Shown here: positions 1,241-22,531 of the stretch, in pieces
Layout: each line of letters begins with the position of its first letter
Position numbering within the stretch: position 1 is the stretch's first letter
Origin: Acanthamoeba lenticulata
Taxonomy: Eukaryota; Discosea; Longamoebia; Acanthamoebidae
Direction: 5' to 3'
DNA: 35,296 bases
Assembly: GCA_002179805.1 (NCBI GenBank)
Contig: NAVB01000088.1
Location: forward strand, 1-35,296
Made by a program: the position numbers and the translations under genes
The notes under the pieces: model-generated
What the model saw: the letters and a program-made list of their open reading frames with translations, nothing else
Databases searched by the model: none
Told to the model about the DNA's origin: nothing

Positions 1241-3142
1241 TCAGAGCTCGTTGAGCTCTCTGTCGTCGTCATCGGCCACGCTAAAGTTAATTTGGCTCTC
1301 GCTGATCTCCTGGCGCCGGCGACGCCACATGATGACCAAGCCCGCTGTGATGGCCGCCGCCACGACCACCACCGCCACAGGAATGGCCACCGCCACGCCC
1401 ACGATCAGGCCCGTGTTGGAGTCGCCTCCGCCCACGCCGTCGCCGCCGTCGCGCGTGCCCAGCAGCACGCCGAGACCCACGCTCGGATCGTACTCCAGCG
1501 ACCGCACAAACGGCGGCAGCTCCACCACCACCTCGTACTCGCGTGCCTTTGTGTCATTGCCCGTGGCGACGGCGACGATGTTGTGGCGAATGGCGGTGGC
1601 GATACCGTCGACCAGCGCCACGTCAAACAGCGACACTGTGGCCACCACCGTCGACGACTGGCCGCTGGCGTCGCTGGCAAAGAGCGGCACATAGAAGGTC
1701 GTCAGCCCGCTTGTGGGCGTGTTGGGTCGGCTCGTCACGTTGGCCGCCGTTGACGGCACCAGCGACGACGATGATGTTGTGTTTCCCGCGGAAAGGAGGC
1801 CAGCGAGGCGGTAGCGCACGGTCGTCCACTCGCTCGGCCCTGGTGAGGAGCCCAAGGAGGTGAAGTTGAGGGACCACTTGACCTGGTTGGCCGCGATGTC
1901 AAAGCTCACGTTGGCGAACGAGGCGCGCGTGGTGCGCGAGTAGAACGTGAACGACTGTGCGAACTGGATCGAGTTGGCCGCCAGTGTGGCGGTGTAGACA
2001 TAGGCCGTGGTGCCTGTCGTCGTGTCGTTGACCTCTGACCGCGTCATCCCTGTTGTGCACGCCATTTTTGATTTATTTTATTGTATTTGATTTGTATTTT
2101 AAAATAAAAAGGATAATAAAATTAGAGGTCATTTCTGTCGACTGAAGAGAAAGAGCGAAAGAGGGGACAGGAGGGCGCACCCGAGAGGTCCGAAGCAGGG
2201 ACAGGCACGCCGCCCAGCGTGACCCCGCTGAGTTCGGACACCACGTTTGCGGGCTCGCCTGCTGCTGATGTCGAGGAAGAGCCGGGCAGGATGGCGGACA
2301 TGTTGAAGGTGGCCTCGTTCGACGCAAAGGCCGCCGTCATGTTGGTCACCGCAACCAACTGAGGCAACGCCGTCGGTGAAGGAGACGGCGAGGACGACGG
2401 ATTATTCGTCGACGAAGGCGTGGGCGAAGGCGAGGGCGATGGCGTGGGCGAGATGGAGAACGACGGCGAGGCGGAGGGTGAACGCGACGGTGTGATGGAA
2501 GCGGACGGCGAGGTGGAAGGCGATGGCGTGATTGAGGCCGACGGGCTGGCCAGTGCGCTCGCGCAGCCGCCCACGGAGACGTAGGGCAGGGGGGACGTCT
2601 CGTACACTTGCACCGAAGGCGTGTTACCTCCCACGATGCCTGAGGCCCATAGGGAAGTCGACGCACTCAACGCGATCTGGATGGTGTAGTTGCCCGTTCC
2701 GAACGGTCTCTGCTCGGGGAAGGTGTAGGTGACCTGCATGGCGCTCCCGCCCGAGTACGTGTTCGAGATGTTTTTGTTCACTCCGTCTGGCATGACGAGC
2801 TGCGCATAACTGCCCACCAACGCGCCGGTGCCTGTGGCACAGAACAAGAAAAAGACGAAGAAGAAGAAAGATGACGATGAGCGAGATGGCGTGCAGCGGA
2901 GCCAAGGTGGTAATGGTGGTGGTACCAGCGACATTGGAGAAATAGACGGTGATGTTCGTGAAATAGAGCAACGGGTCGCTCACGTTGAGGGAAACGCTCT
3001 GCTTCGCTATCAGTACTCCCGTAGACGAAGGACCCGGGTCCGTGCTGACCAGTTTGCCGCACAAGACGCTTGCGGCTGTTTGTGCACTTGGACACAGCAG
3101 TAGTAGCAGCAATGCCCCAAAGCAAAGTGGGCTCGGCAGCAT
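1241..3142 (-). CDS. Type I membrane glycoprotein with Pro-Ser stalk, paralogue 2
   Basis: Three exons, 3142..2926, 2831..2181 and 2049..1241, all phase-1 joins, give 558 aa. Start at 3142 gives the signal peptide MLPSPLCFGALLLLLLC; an ATG at 3256 is in frame but less like the paralogue. In order: signal peptide 1-24; extracellular domain with NIT/NYT glycosylation sites; a stalk of repeated PS/SP units at about 166-226; a second domain including ANQVKWSLNF, a pattern I associate with large families of protist surface proteins; one transmembrane helix about 504-531; then RRRR and a 27-residue acidic tail ending DDDDRELNEL. The tetra-arginine after the helix predicts the tail is cytosolic. Same orientation as the copy at 875. 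Head-to-head with the glutaminase, 305 bp apart. No enzymatic motif seen; adhesion, receptor or coat roles are all open. Confidence 0.85.
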
Positions 3143-3252
3143 CGTCAGTTCTTTGCACTGTTTTGCTTCGTCGCTCCTTTCGTCTTTATCGCTAGAAGCT
3201 CCCAATAGCAGCAGCGCAACAATAACCGAAAAGGCAAACGAAAAAAGAGACA

Positions 3253-3332
3253 ACAAAGGACCCTAATTGGGTGTATTTATGGTGTATTATCGCCCACAGA
3301 TAAATGGGTTATTCTTGCTGACGTGGCTCCAC
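3253..3332 (+). promoter_or_regulatory. Shared upstream block between paralogue 2 and the glutaminase gene
   Basis: Counterpart of 953-1021. The 14-mer TGACGTGGCTCCAC at 3319-3332 carries a TGACGT core like those bound by bZIP factors. It sits 177 bp from the paralogue-2 start and 115 bp from the glutaminase start, so it could serve both divergent genes. Regulatory role is inferred from conservation only. Confidence 0.45.
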
Positions 3333-3447
3333 GGAGCCCGTTTATCATAAAACATCGTCATCCCCCAACAGCAAAGAACGAGAGGAGGACCACCCACAGG
3401 TCAGCTCCTCTTTCTTCTTCTCCTCTTTCGTGCCCACCACCGCCAGG

Positions 3448-6400
3448 ATGAAGCAGCACGTTATATTGTGCGCCGTCGTGCTTGCGGCGTTGCTGGCCCA
3501 GACAAGCGGCCAGTCGGCGCCCATCCCCGGGTTTCGCCCGCCTGCGGTGCCGCTGGTGCTGATGGACCCCTACATGAACGTTTGGCTTCGCGGCACCAAC
3601 CTCACCGACGACTGGTCGACGTGCGTTGCTCTTCTCCCCCGAAAGGTCAAAAAAACAACCAAAAAATAATGAAAAATATTAAACAACAACTATTCAACCA
3701 TGCGCAGGTACTGGGACGGCACGGTCAAGGCCCTCGTTGGCGTGCGTCCTCCTGTTCCTCCCTGTTTGTTGCTGTTGTTGCCCACTCTCTCGCGCAATGC
3801 GCTGATTGGCCGTTTTATATATTGTTTTATTCTTAATGCGAATTTTTCATTGCACTGCACAACAGCTGATCCGCATCGACGGGACGGCCTACCGCTTCAT
3901 GGGTCCTGCGGGCGAGGCGGGCGGCTCCCTGCCCGCGCCCATCCAGCAGCTCTCGAGCTCGGTACGCCCTTTCCTCAGTTTGTCTCTGTTTTTAAATTTT
4001 TTTTTATATCTCAATTCTTTTTTCTCAATTTTCCAGGTGTATCCGACCCAAACGCACTTCAGGTTCGGGGCGCGCGGCGTGGAGCTCACTGTCACCTTCA
4101 CCACGCCGCTGCTGCCGCACGACGTCGAAGTGATGTCCCGGCCCGTGACCTACCTCACCTTCTCCGTACGCCACCAGCTTCCTCTTTTAGCATCATGATG
4201 CTGACGATTGAATGGAGATGATGATGATGATGATCATACTCACAAGCTTGGGTCGCGCAGGTGCGGTCGACGGACAAGGCCGTGCATCGGGTGGAGCTCT
4301 ACTACGACAACACGGCCGAGTGGTGCGTCAACACTGTCGACCAGCAGGTCGAGTGGCGTCGCCTCACCAGTGCGCCTCCTCCACCTCCCCCGCCACCCCA
4401 CCCCCTGCCGCTCTCAGGCTCGCTTCGCTAAGATGATGATGCTGATTCATGTCAATCCCAATCCTCCCTTTTTCTGGATTGCTGTTGCAACACAGACGCC
4501 TCCAAGGAGCTCGAGATCATGCGCATCGGCACCTCTGCTCAGCCCGTCCTCAAGCGGGTATTTTTTATTTATTTTTTATTTTTTAATAATTATTATTTAT
4601 TGATAAATTGCATGTCGAATAGATATTAAATATTTAATATTAAATATTCTTTTGTTGATTTGTTATTGCAGTCGGGTGACGGAGTGGGCATCGATTGGGG
4701 CTACGTCTATGTGGCCACCCCGCGTTCGGACCCGACCCTTCAGACCGTCATCTACGGCGCGATCGGGGCTCGCTCCTCTTTCGTCTCCTCTGGGTACGTT
4801 GCGAATACAAGATAAATAAAATCACAAATAAAATCAATAAAAAATTAAACTAAAAGAACTATCTAATTTTTAATGAATGGGGATGAGGACAGAGCGCTGC
4901 CCAGGTCGGACGACATGCGCATGCCGCGCGCGGCGAGTGACGACTGGCCGGTGATGGCCGTCCGGTGGTCGCTCACGACCCACCCGTCGGGCGAGCCCGA
5001 GGAGCGCCACCTCATGCTGGCCTACGACGACCGCTACTCCATCATGTGGTTCGGCACGCCCTTCCCGCCCTACTGGAACCGTGACATGCGTCCCGACGCC
5101 GGTGCGCCCCTCTTCGTTCTTCTTCGTTTTTATTTTAATTTGATAACTCTAAATTATAATTTGTCTTTATTTTTCATTATTTAGACTTAAATAGTACAAC
5201 TGATTTTCTCTTGATTTATTTTTTGCATGTGTTTTGTGTCGTTTTTCAGTTCATCTGTTGGAAACTGCCGAGCACGAACGCATCAAGCTCCTCGACCGCT
5301 GCCATGAGTTCGACCGAAAGCTCGTTGACGTATGGGCGCTAGTTATTCCCCTTTTGGACGTAAACGCGTCGATAACGAACCAATTTATCTGCTGAAACGC
5401 TGCGCAGGAGCTGGAGCAGGCGGGCGGCGCCAAGTACGCGACGATCGCCTCGCTGGCCTTCCGCCAGTGCGCCGGCGGGACCAAGCTCGTGTGGAACACC
5501 GAGAAGAAGACCCTGTGGTACTTCATGAAGGAGATCTCGTCCGACGGCGACCTGTCCACGGTGGACGTCATCTACCCAGCCTCGCCCTTCTTCCTCCACT
5601 TCAACCCGGAGCTGCTGCGCCTGCTCCTCGTGCCGCTCCTCGAGTACGCCAACAACCAGACCTCCGTCCGCTACAACTTCCCCTGGGCACCTCACCATCT
5701 CGTACTCGCTCCTTCCTTCTTTTTCGTTCTTTTCCGCTCTCTTTCGCTTTTGTCGACTTCTTGTTCTATTGTAATTTTATTTAATTTTTTTAATGTTTTA
5801 ATTTTATTTATAAATTCGTACCAATATTAGGGCGAGTATCCGATTGGTTACATTCTGCCAAAGGACCAGGAGAACATGCCGGTGGAGGAGACGGGCAACC
5901 TGTTCATGATGATCCTGGGCATCGCCCAGCGCCAGAACAACGACCTCTCGTGGCTGTTCCCCACCTACACCCACCTGCTCGAGCTCTGGGCCGGCTACCT
6001 CGTGGCGTCCCTGCCCGACCCGGGCAACCAGCTCTGCACCGACGACTTTGAAGGCGTACGTCCTCCTCTTCTTCATCTTCATCTTCATCCTCATCATCTT
6101 CATCATCATCTTCATTCACAACGCGAGTGATGATGTGTTGTTGTTGTTGGTGGTGGTGGTGCAGCCATCGCCGCACAATGCCAACCTGGCGGCCAAGGGC
6201 GTCGTGGGGCTGGCGGCCTACGCCAAGCTGCTGGCCAAGGCCGGGAACGCGACCGGGGCGGCGTATTACGGGCAGCTGGCGAACAAGTTCATGGGCCAGT
6301 GGATGCAGCTGGCGGCCACCACGGCCGGCGGGCAGCCGCACTACAAGCTCGAGTACGACATCGTCGACAGCTGGTCGCTCAAGTACAACATCGCGTACCA

Positions 6401-17400: not shown

Positions 17401-18423
17401 TGTTTACAATTTGGCTTTTAGGCCGGCGATCGCGGCCAAGGCGGTGCTGATGGCGCTGCAGAAGCTGCGCACGCTGCCGCCCGGCCACTACGTGCTCTCC
17501 CACAAGATCGAGGAGCGGGTCGTTGTCATCCTCAAGGCCGTCGATCGTACGCCCACTCTCAGTCGTATGGACGTCATGCTCTGTGATGTGTTGACGACCG
17601 ACGCGCCTCTTTGCAGCGTCGACAATGCCGTCGGCCCAGCAGCCAAAGGGCGCGACGAGCAACACGTTGTACGACCTCCACGCGGCCCACGCGTCGTCGG
17701 GCGCCACGGACGACCGCTCGGTGCCCTACGTGCGCCTCATCTGGCCGCGCGAGCTGTCGGCCGAGCAGATCCCGCACACGTTCCCACCCGTGCCGCTGCC
17801 CGTGCCGGCCGCCGCGCAGAGGGGAAGAACGAGCAGCGAGTACCACAAGCTCAAGAAGGTCAAGAACGTTAAATATTGCTACGACTTTGCCAACAAGGTT
17901 CGCCTCTCTGGCCTTTTATTTGCTTAGTTTGCTTGAATGTATGCTGAAATATGCTTGGAATTCTTAGAGAGTGTGCCCTCGAGGGGCTGGGTGCCCGTTC
18001 CCGCATCTGGACGCCAAGACGGTGCTGGAAGCCAGCAAGGAGAAGCGGAAGCGCGCCAACAAGAAGCACAAGCTCAAGAAGCGCCAGGCGGCTGCTACGG
18101 CGGCAGCAGCCGCAACAACACCAAAAGCACAAAAGGCGGCGTCGGCGGCCACCGCGCCGAGCGGTTCCCCCGAGGGGGAGGGCTCGCGGTCGCCGCTGCC
18201 GCCCGGGTCACCCGCCGCGGGCGGCTCGAGCGACAACGACGACAGCGTGGCCAGCGGGGAGGACGGCGCTGCCGCTGAATATGATGACGATGGCGGCGAC
18301 GACGACAACAACGAAGACCACGGTGGTGATGACGAAGAGGACCACGCTGATGACCAGGACGATGATGAGTCTTCTTCAGCCATCCCAAATGACCTTCTCT
18401 ACATCGCCGCCACCCAAATTTAA
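14489..18423 (+). CDS. ICE2: ICE2/NARG2-like little elongation complex subunit with C-terminal CCCH zinc finger
   Basis: In animals ICE2 is part of the little elongation complex that drives RNA polymerase II transcription of snRNA genes (family knowledge). Fourteen exons: 14489..14541, 14626..15145, 15214..15312, 15402..15458, 15554..15613, 15711..15788, 15875..16095, 16161..16237, 16316..16781, 16874..17051, 17142..17356, 17422..17546, 17617..17897, 17968..18423; 961 aa. N-terminal acidic start MEFDSDEEDRLL, Ala-rich region, then helices around LFLDLERKYVLHQQQM. The NARG2_C-type domain spans exons 8-13: MYSETWEIPVTVV, VVLVDKPLLKKKMTLREKNE, a long Glu/Lys-rich insert, LTYHLWSFGDIRLLIRCKLH, AKLEYFGDHW, LLPPGHYVLSHKI-like strand and YVRLIWPREL. 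Exons 13-14 add CX8CX5CX3H (C804, C813, C819, H823), then a basic and acidic tail. The weakest joins are the acceptors at 14625 and 17141. Confidence 0.8.
16466..16781 (+). repeat. Gln-rich and Glu/Lys-rich low-complexity insert in the ICE2-like gene
   Basis: CAA/CAG runs (16486-16526) followed by GAG/GAA/AAG-rich sequence coding KEEKEKKEEEKEEMEEEE-type charged helix. It interrupts the conserved domain between AYEHLGLNL and the exon with the LWSFGD motif. Confidence 0.75.
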
Positions 18424-18517
18424 TGGCAAAAATTTATAAAATACAAATCCATTTTTTTTGAAATTCCAAAAACTTTCTCCATTTTTTGTTTGGCCAAGTC
18501 GGTTATTCTATTCAAAG

Positions 18518-21292
18518 ATGGAAGAGGATGAGCCGTGCTGGGATGAGTGGCTGTGGGTTCACGTGTTTGAGTTCCTCAGCGTGCGGGACCTGGCCGCTGC
18601 CCGCCTCGTCTGCGCCACCTGGGCGCGCCTGGCCGACGACGGTGCGCCCCTTTTTTTGTCTTTTGCTTGTAGCGCTGAGGCCAACTCGTGCGGAGGAGCG
18701 CGGCTGCAGGCAGCGTGTGGCGCGTCAAGTGCCGCGAGCCGGTCGACGCCTCCCGAGGCCAAGGCAAGCTTGGTGGCCGCTTCGAGCCTCGGCTGTTCAC
18801 GCGCAACCTGAAGACAGCAGACAGTGCCCTGTGGAAGCCTCTCTTCCGCGAACTCGGTACGCACCTCCATATTATTCTTATCGAATTCTTTTTTAACAAT
18901 ATTTATATTTTATATTTTATTATTTATTCTTTCATGTTTTTTCGCAGCTACGTTTGCGGTCAAGGGCGCGGGGACGGACCACCTGGCCTACGGGGTCCTC
19001 CGTGAGGGCCTGTGCGCCTCTTCAAGCGACCACTGGTCGCAGGGCATCCACCAGACTCTCAAGCCGTACGGCCTACACAAGCCCTTACGAATATTTGTAT
19101 TGTATTTTATTTTATAAAGTAATGTTACCTGTGCCACCGACGTACGTGCAGGAGCCTGCAGACGTTTTGGTCGTCCAAGGGCTCGGCCGACCCCGACAGC
19201 AGCGAGTTCCTCGTCTACCGCCTGGCGCAGCCCATCTGCCTCGTGCGGTCGGTGAGCATCACCATCTACCGCGCTGGCTACCAGAAGGGCATCCCCGTGT
19301 ACGGGCCCCAGCGTCTGCAGGTGTCCGTCGGCTTCGGGCCGGAGAAGGAGGACATGCACTACGTCTCGCCCGTCTTTCCCGTCGACAACTCGGCCGGTAC
19401 TCTCGTCCTCCTTCATCTTCATCTTCTTCATGTTCCTCAATTTGTGTCGACTGACCGGCTGCGTAGCCGAGCAGACGTTCGAGCTGGCGCCAGAGCTCGT
19501 GGCCGGAGGCTTCCTTCGCATCGACCTCTACGGGCGCGTCCAGACGCAGCCGGACGACGACCTCTACTACACGGTCCTCCAGCGCGTCGTCGCCCTCGGC
19601 GCGCCCATTGGTTCGTTTTCACCTCGTAATTTCTATGGGTTTCCACGAAACGTTCAGCGGAGCTGATTCGTCGAAAAACAGCGGCGCTGAGCGCGAAGCC
19701 GGTGCTGTCGGGCGCGCTGGTGCGGCTGGCCATGTCGAAGCCCTGCTTCCGGGCCAGCCTCCTCCACCCGCCCGTCTCGGAGCTGCGCCGCCGGTCGCGC
19801 CACAAGCGCCGCCGGACCGCCGTCGACCACGTTCTGGCGCACGGCGACGACGACGAAGGTGAAGGTGATGAAGGTGAAGACGAAGATGAAGAGGCGATGG
19901 ATGAAGAGGAAGAAGATGAAGAGGACGAGCGCCGTCACCTGTCCGATGACGACGAGAACGATCGCGACAAGACGGCGCAGTCAGACGCGGCCGACCTGGA
20001 GGAGCTCAAGGCCATCATGGAGGGCCAGCCCGAGTCCATGGTCAGCGCCAGCGATGACGGCGACGACGATCAAGACGTCGATCTCGATGCCGAGGAGGCC
20101 CTGTGCCGCCAGCTCCTGTACGTCGTAGTGGTCCTCCTTCCGGATGTTGTTGTCATCGCCTTGTTTGACGACGACGACGATGACGGCGAGGGCATCATCA
20201 GGCGTGTGCTGCAGCGTCAGATCGGGGACGCCATCGACGCGTCGCAGCGGGCGCTCCAGACGCGCGAGTACATCCGCGCGCTGCTGGCCAAGGCCAACTA
20301 CTCCGAAGCCGCCGCCGTCGCTCTCAACACCCCGCCCGTACGTGAATAATCTCAAGAATGACCGAACAAAAAGATGGGAAATACTTAAAATAACTTGAAT
20401 TGTATGCAGGAGGGAGAGGTGCGGACGGCTGAGGTGCTCGGCTGGTTCGGCGATGCTGGGCAGGAGGGCAAGAATGACAAGAATGCCAACAAGAGCCCGC
20501 TCGAGGCCTATCTGCTGATGGCCGCCCGCCGGCGCAAGGCGCTCAACGCGCACGAGTCGGTCGCCATCGCGCAGGCGCTGCTGCCCGCCCAGCTCTCGCT
20601 GCTGTCCATCTGCGTCACGTCGGGCCAGTTCACCTGCACCGAGGCCCTGGGCGACGTGCTCGCCCCGCACAACCCGCTCGTCGCCGCCGACGTCTTCATG
20701 CGCGCCCACGTCTTTGACAAGGTCCGCGCGTGTGTTGTGTGCGCGTGTGCGCGTGCGGGGACTGACGACGGCGTCGCGAGCAGGTTCTGCCATGCCTCGT
20801 GCGGGCCGGCCAGTTGGGGGCAGTGGCGCGCGTGGCCGAGGCCATCCCGTACCCGGTCGACTACGGCCTGCTCCTGCAGGTGCGGCGTCGCGCGTGTGAT
20901 GTGTGTGTGTGTGTGTGTGCGGCTCCACGCGTGTGTGTGCGGCTGACGCGCGCGTGTGTGCGTGTGGCGCGCAGCTGGCCAAGGCCGAGCTGCCGAGGGT
21001 CAAGGCGCTCGAGTTCGGGCTGATGCTGAGCCAGCCCGCCGGACACGGCGCAGCAGGTGCGCTGCTCGACGTGGACCAGATCAGGGCCACGCTGGAGATC
21101 GAGATGGCCGAGGGCGAGTGGGACGTGCGCGCCAAGCTGCGCCAGCTGATCCAGGAGGCCGGTGGGAACGAGCAGCCCGAAGACGAGCTGATGGTGGTGG
21201 CTGAAGATGAAGACGATGAGGAAGAGGAGGAAGAAGAAGATGAGGACGAGGAAGAAGAGGAAGACGGAGACGAGGACAAAGAGGAAGACTGA
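18518..21292 (+). CDS. F-box/At4g00755-like protein fused to a clathrin heavy-chain linker-like segment
   Basis: Exons 18518..18641, 18710..18856, 18948..19065, 19152..19396, 19467..19610, 19658..20117, 20202..20337, 20410..20721, 20784..20879, 20975..21292; 699 aa. F-box at 8-42 (WDEWLWVHVFEFLSVRDLAA, CATWARLADD). Residues 90-258 follow the plant At4g00755 family: LCASSSDHWSQGIHQTL, FWSSKGSADPDSSEFLVYRL, YQKGIPVYGPQRLQVSVGFG. An acidic linker fills about 323-400. Residues 413-620 resemble the heavy-chain linker and first alpha-solenoid repeats: RALLAKANYSEAAAVAL against human FNALFAQGNYSEAAKVA, CTEALGDVLAPHNPLVAADV against CSEELGDLV...PTLALSV, and FMRAHVFDKVLPCLVRAGQL against [20 protein letters not shown]. 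An acidic tail ends the chain. Both halves are joined within one uninterrupted exon (19658-20117). Role inferred: an SCF receptor that may contact clathrin or mimic its linker. The start is 94 bp after the preceding stop. Confidence 0.83.
20882..20972. repeat. TG/CG-alternating microsatellite in an F-box/clathrin gene intron
   Basis: Tracts of gtgtgtgtgtgtgtgcggc type fill most of the intron 20880-20974. It resembles the tract in the minus-strand F-box gene intron at 12683-12741. Confidence 0.8.
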
Positions 21293-21467
21293 AGAGCCAG
21301 AAGAGTAATACGCTCTGCGTGCGTCACATTCTTTTTTTTCTGCGCTGTTCTTGGCTGGGTTACCCTGTAACTCTTCGGAGTTTTGCTTATCCATTGGCGT
21401 TTTCTATTGAACTGTGAAGACTTGGTAAAAGGTCAAAGCTTGTTTGTTTTAGTTTGTAGTCAACACC

Positions 21468-22499
21468 ATGAAAGCGAGCCTCTTTTTTGTGGTGGCCTCC
21501 CTCCTGGCCTGCCTTGTCTCTCATGCTTCCTCAGCCAGTGAGATTAACTTCAAGTAAGTAGTTCACCTCCCACTTTCAAGTGATGTAATTGGGAATAGTA
21601 CTTCTTTGTACAAAGATGTAAATAAGAAAAGTGTTGACAATCCTCTTTTGTCAAACAGCTTCAAGGGAATGATCCCCGAACCTCAGGCCTGCCCCAGCCT
21701 CCCTGCTTGCCCCACTTGCGAGGTGCCCAAGGACTGCACCTACATCCTGCTGGGCAGTACCTCGGCAGGTCCCTTGGCCGAGGCCGTCGCTGAGGCCTTG
21801 AGCAAGAGCGATTCGTTCCCCTGCTACGGCGCCTACCGCGGGCTCGGCACTGGTCCCGGTTACGCCGCGTCCTTTGCTGGCCTCGAGGTCGGCCTGGCCT
21901 CGCGTCCGCCCCGTTCCACTGAGCTGACCACCATCCCGCCGGCTGCGGTCAACACCACCAAGATGGTTGCCTTTGGCCGTACCTCGACCTGCATCGTGAG
22001 GTCGACCCTCGCCAACAACACCGTGCCGCTCGAGTGGACCAAGGCCGACCTGTGTCAAACCGTCGCCGCCGCCACCCGCTCCTTCAACATCATGGGCCAC
22101 AACCCCACGTTCTCCACCCACGTCCAGCGTCTGGCCACGGGATGCGGGATCAACCTCAACGCCATCCGTTACGACCAGATCGTCGACACCCCGACCGTCA
22201 CCGAGAGCATCGCCATGCGCGGCGCCAACTGGATGGGCGTCATCCCTCCCGACGAGCTCCAGCCGTTCCTCGAAACTGGCCTCGTGTCCCTGGTCAGGGT
22301 AGACGGCCTGACCTGCCTCGACGCCGACTACTTCGCCGGCTCCAACATCTACTTCATCCTGAGCAACTACGGCACTGCGCTCGTGGACCAGTTCCTCGCT
22401 GTCGCCCGCGAGGCCCTTGCCGAAGTCGACGGCCCGTCGTTCGGCTTGGCCATCTTCCCCAACGCCCCGATCATCGCGCCCAGCCAGGCCCTCAACTAG
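21468..22499 (+). CDS. Secreted Cys-containing protein, possible periplasmic-binding-protein-like fold
   Basis: Exons 21468..21553 and 21659..22499 (phase-2 join, 105-nt intron) give 308 aa. The first exon codes a clear signal peptide (MKASLFFVVASLLACLVSHA, cleavage near SSA). The mature chain begins with a short Cys cluster (ACPSLPACPTCEVPKDC), then YILLGSTSAGPLAEAVAEAL, YRGLGTGPGYAASFAGLEVG and MVAFGRTSTCIVRSTL, alternating strands and helices. Phosphate-type solute-binding proteins have a comparable order (a loop with Ser/Thr-Gly, then a Gly-rich GSGxG-like segment, then an E/D-VG-AS pattern), so I suspect that fold, but the similarity is weak. No membrane helix or GPI-type tail. Cys residues are numerous enough for disulfides. 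It converges on guanine deaminase with 53 bp between stops. Confidence 0.75.
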
Positions 22500-22531
22500 G
22501 CCGTCGTTGTTGTTGTCATATCTTTTCATTC

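Follow-up and report, generated by a model that had tools for sequence, protein, structure and literature searches.

The linker-like domain of the clathrin heavy chain (CHC) is known from another protein context in CLHC1, the animal clathrin heavy chain linker domain protein. Yeast Rcy1 is an F-box protein that acts in endocytic traffic, and the Rcy1-Skp1 complex is reported to support recycling of Snc1 independently of cullin and Cdc34, with no clathrin segment mentioned in the part consulted (PMC5663479). A traffic protein, the Vam6-like Vlp1, is a potential substrate of the F-box protein Fbp1, without a fusion of the two in the part of the report consulted (PMC8228526). Within CHC, the docking site for TACC3 lies in residues 457–507 according to the consulted sections of two reports (PMC5897774, PMC8488560), the first of which lists contacts at L476, S477, L480, R481, L503, Y504, and K507, with D455 holding R481 (PMC5897774). 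Here we describe a locus of Acanthamoeba lenticulata in which an F-box and a segment resembling the linker and ankle of CHC probably belong to a single gene.

The locus lies in a stretch of 35,296 nucleotides (contig NAVB01000088.1, assembly GCA_002179805.1; hereafter the window), and the genome searched alongside it comprises 48.5 Mb in 1825 contigs. Of seven profilin matches in this genome, the two best have profilin II and profilins IA and I of Acanthamoeba castellanii as their nearest PDB chains without being identical to them, as would be expected of an Acanthamoeba other than that strain. Joining the exons on the sequence of 17500–22500 gives a ten-exon model with GT-AG introns at 18518–21292 of the forward strand, comprising 699 codons with no internal stop and nine introns of 47–95 nt (Table 1). 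GC3 is 0.78–0.95 across all ten exons, and the intergenic flanks have 27% GC (18424–18517, 94 nt) and 42% GC (21293–21468, ∼175 nt). Intron 6 has a length divisible by three and contains no stop, so that two isoforms are possible; its retention would insert a short hydrophobic and then an acidic stretch. A GT/TG repeat lies inside intron 9 (20880–20974).

Table 1. Layout of the F-box/clathrin-like gene in the window
Feature	Position	Strand	Content
Exon 1	18518..18641	+	Start codon; most of the F-box (residues 1–41)
Exon 2	18710..18856	+	End of the F-box and connector, from residue 42
Exon 3	18948..19065	+	F-box-associated domain begins; match to P0001 from residue 101
Exon 4	19152..19396	+	F-box-associated domain, FWSSKGS motif
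Exon 5	19467..19610	+	End of the F-box-associated domain, GRVQTQPDDDLYYTVL motif, to residue ∼259
Intron 5	19611..19657 (47 nt), or 19611–19681 (71 nt, second in-frame acceptor)	+	
Exon 6	19658..20117	+	Basic stretch RRRSRHKRRR (303–312), then acidic linker; neither domain
Intron 6	20118..20201	+	84 nt; in frame and stop-free if retained
Exon 7	20202..20337	+	CHC linker-like segment begins (NYSEAA)
Exon 8	20410..20721	+	CHC linker/ankle-like segment (CTEALGDV, RAHVFDK)
Exon 9	20784..20879	+	CHC ankle-like segment (RAGQL)
Exon 10	20975..21292	+	End of the CHC-like segment, acidic tail (31/44 D/E, residues 656–699), stop

The acidic linker noted in an earlier, sequence-only reading of this DNA is borne out, with D or E at 46 of the 101 positions of residues 312–412. 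Runs rich in D/E are also present in the upstream gene (18222–18420), and the gene described here has two, in its linker (19840–19980) and its tail (21190–21290), so acidic runs alone mean little at this locus. The upstream gene (∼17595–18423, same strand) has an acidic C terminus and encodes CPRGAGCPFPH, which looks like a portion of a CCCH zinc finger. The downstream gene (21468–22499) has apparently one intron (about 21554–21658) and a hydrophobic, signal-peptide-like N terminus.

The N-terminal module is an F-box at residues 12–50, as the same reading had proposed. It scores above the Pfam cut-off (E 2.1e-8), with 34.2 bits for PF12937 (cut-off 24.3) and 23.4 bits for PF00646 (cut-off 20.5), and 17 PDB sequences matched at E up to 10, each aligned within residues 4–55, the best being FBXW7 (E 0.0024). 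The F-box is followed by a second domain, residues 101–259, that matches a 376-residue F-box protein, P0001, with E 1.9e-15 (database of 5.8 billion); of the 7994 candidates scored, P0001 alone reached E 0.01 or better, and it aligns in two parts, one of 152 columns at 31% and one of 33 columns at 45%. Both proteins carry an F-box and then the motifs FWSSKGS and G(K/R)VQTQP(G/D)D(N/D)L(F/Y)YTVL in the same order. P0001 differs in having an acidic stretch ahead of the domain and an insert within it, and in stopping after the domain, two residues past the last matching position, without a clathrin part. An alignment of P0001 against separate exons was poor and was set aside, and its predicted structure (pLDDT 38.3, pTM 0.24) is too weak to carry a claim. 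The earlier assignment of this region to an At4g00755-like domain thus stands in so far as a post-F-box domain is common to two F-box proteins; the name itself is one that we take to be plausible for the domain type. The first 302 residues had no match in NCBIfam. In the genome, at least 26 matches were obtained at E up to 1, six of them the window itself and at least 20 confined to residues 4–78, the F-box end, and none among the matches listed is a second copy of the associated domain.

The C-terminal part is homologous to the linker/ankle region of CHC, as judged from several sequence comparisons. Residues 434–612 are colinear with CHC 366–536 in a phmmer comparison with PDB chains (E 7.6e-15, 58.5 bits), in which all seven sequences found at E up to 1 are clathrin heavy chains. 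The tail scores 51.0 bits against the corresponding stretch of the genome's own CHC, where the reversed sequence scores −1.0 and the best of 2000 shuffles, 1410 of which were reported at all, scores 5.7. Against a truncated CHC paralogue the score is 27.7 bits (best shuffle 8.0), and the tail reaches 66.4 bits with a profile built from three stretches of CHC, for which none of 1000 shuffles exceeds 7.7. The motifs picked out in the sequence-only reading start at residues 445 (NYSEAA), 534 (CTEALGDV), 556 (RAHVFDKV), and 569 (RAGQL). Their order holds, and this protein and bovine CHC agree in the last two spacings, of 22 and 13 residues; the first spacing is 89 residues from start to start, rather than about 75 as had been stated, and 83 in bovine CHC.

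The homology shows in direct comparison with CHC chains and not in the PF13838 search that had been suggested as a check. Clathrin_H_link (PF13838; 66 positions) remains below its cut-off of 27.8 bits, scoring 15.3 with the whole protein and 17.4 with the C-terminal part, and a genome search with this profile finds the contigs C355 and C437 among its matches, with the window absent; default annotation would therefore miss the tail. No Pfam match at E up to 1 to propeller or CLH repeat families was found in the 699 residues. The predicted structure of exon 8 alone is all-helical at low confidence (pLDDT 54.4, pTM 0.39). A Foldseek search with this weak model ranks clathrin (1bpo) first of 66 at E 0.98 and probability 0.30, with no hit at E up to 0.001. 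The central proposal of the sequence-only reading, an F-box protein with a segment like the CHC linker/ankle, is supported by significant homology on both sides.

The genome also contains a CHC gene and a CHC-like gene with which the tail can be compared. The organism's own CHC, on C355, carries the linker, and all seven of the genome's listed CLH-repeat matches fall on that contig. A second CHC-like gene, on C437 (L017, about 3040–5586), contains a linker scoring 53.6 bits for PF13838 in a hand-joined stretch, then the start of the leg and a stop; its upstream frames appear propeller-like by eye, and the gene seems to encode a clathrin chain that is leg-less by nature. It shares with the protein described here the CHC linker and leg start without CLH-repeat matches, and differs in its propeller-like frames (by eye) and in that no F-box was seen. 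By BLASTP, the tail scores 72.8 bits against bovine CHC (31.9% identity), 63.9 bits against the genome's own CHC (28.1%), and 40.8 bits against the truncated C437 gene (25.0%), and an origin from this last gene was set aside on the difference between 40.8 and 63.9 bits. The tail is colinear with the linker/ankle of both bovine/human CHC (366–536) and the organism's own chain at 28–32% identity, whereas CHC additionally has a propeller and CLH repeats. From these alignments we conclude that the tail was derived from a CHC, and not recently, because the region is a single open frame in the genome's own CHC and is spread over four exons here.

The CHC stretch matched by the tail covers the TACC3 site, residues 457–507 in the consulted parts of the reports cited above. 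Of the eight residues of this site, the tail retains only R481, with M in place of L480. The genome's own CHC retains five (L476, S477, L503, Y504, and K507) and the truncated paralogue three (D455, R481, and Y504). Since the docking site is mostly replaced, a TACC3-like use of the tail is unlikely, in so far as the alignment indicates. Among positions identical in bovine and the organism's own CHC, similar residues are found in the tail at 37/57 hydrophobic, 23/42 polar, and 8/16 G/P positions, and retention at hydrophobic and polar positions is not significantly different (Fisher p 0.41).

The sequence-only reading had placed the junction of the two halves within the exon at 19658–20117, which would make the fusion independent of any predicted splice, and this argument is wrong. 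The associated domain ends in exon 5 (residue ∼259) and the clathrin similarity begins in exon 7; because exon 6 holds neither domain, the fusion depends on the splicing of intron 5, not of intron 6. If intron 5 is left unspliced, translation stops after 277 residues, and the locus could then be read as two neighbouring genes, an F-box protein ending at 19666 and an acidic, clathrin-like protein starting from the ATG at 19732. The end of P0001 two residues past its last matching position would agree with such a division, as would the length of intron 5, at 47 nt the shortest in the gene, where the other eight measure 62–95 nt. Six introns of the CHC gene, taken from the shortest joined product, measure 77, 216, 218, 220, 227, and 239 nt, with joins of 56 and 50 nt also possible for the first of these. 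However, the gap between stop and start would be only 65 nt, compared with 94 and ∼175 nt for the flanking intergenic stretches, and the stretch upstream of the first exon 6 ATG has coding-like codons (GC3 0.79 over 19660–19731), unlike the flanks with their 27% and 42% GC. Both in-frame acceptors of intron 5, moreover, preserve the reading frame. We regard a pair of separate genes as quite improbable.

We therefore favor, with reasonable though far from complete confidence, a single gene encoding a putative Skp1-binding F-box adaptor with its associated domain, a linker that is first basic and then acidic, and an arm derived from at least residues 366–536 of CHC. The F-box would dock on Skp1 of an SCF ligase, and the CHC-derived helical segment may bind other proteins as a docking arm, either to present substrates or to position the ligase. 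The protein cannot itself build a coat, because propeller, later leg, and trimerisation domain were not found in it. The genome contains six Skp1 matches, 27 cullin matches (22 above cut-off), and one clathrin light-chain match, which, together with CHC, means that this organism has partners for both an SCF adaptor and clathrin. The functions suggested in the sequence-only reading, ubiquitination of clathrin-coat or propeller-bound proteins or competition with the linker of clathrin, are neither favored nor contradicted by the present comparisons. A role of the protein in clathrin traffic is something we infer, and the specific form in which the F-box module takes the place of the propeller, bringing a ligase to coats or to proteins that dock on the linker/ankle and so coupling coat turnover to ubiquitination, seems unlikely. 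Alternatively, the tail may have been co-opted as a generic α-solenoid scaffold with no remaining tie to clathrin biology. This is a serious contender, though we lean against it: an identity of only 28–32% to bovine and own CHC, the loss of TACC3-site residues (1/8, versus 5/8 and 3/8 in the two other genes), and the division into four exons of a region that is one open frame in the organism's CHC all speak for it, but CHC order and spacing are retained, and a single site is a poor guide to the rest. That the tail is of the CLHC1 type, and so not CHC-derived, is highly improbable; CLHC1 too bears a free-standing CHC linker domain, but BLASTP of the tail against a provisional sequence for part of human CLHC1 listed no match at E up to 100, against 72.8 and 63.9 bits for bovine and own CHC. 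The protein might instead bind Skp1 and act in endocytic traffic without ligase activity, its clathrin part placing it on coats or endosomes. The Rcy1-Skp1 precedent, as described in the consulted part of its report (PMC5663479), and the origin of the tail from a traffic protein are consistent with this reading, which we nonetheless hold to be rather unlikely, given that the cullin matches make a canonical SCF possible and that most residues of the TACC3 site in CHC have been exchanged. A role of the SCF type is more likely than one of the Rcy1 type.

Of the 7996 candidates scored in a protein database search, which was probably driven by the acidic tail, none was a fused relative at E up to 0.001, and a second protein search, with 7997 scored candidates, gave none at E up to 10. 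The silence of both is weak evidence, because a length rule leaves full-length CHC out of each. Viral contigs yielded six and one pattern stretches, none confirmed as a fused relative, and phages yielded no fused relative. These searches, which have little power for eukaryotes, did not turn up the fusion in a second species. Likewise, none of the papers listed in literature searches, which leave out most subscription journals, describes an F-box joined to a clathrin linker.

If the locus is expressed as one transcript, it would represent, as far as these searches reach, an undescribed combination of domains, in which a ubiquitin-ligase adaptor is linked to part of the clathrin coat. The arrangement suggests that the CHC linker/ankle is a module transferable from one protein to another; in this form, Pfam scans with the curated cut-off miss it. 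Amoebae feed by endocytosis, and a single transcript from this gene would offer a handle on how they might regulate components of the coat or the proteins that partner them.
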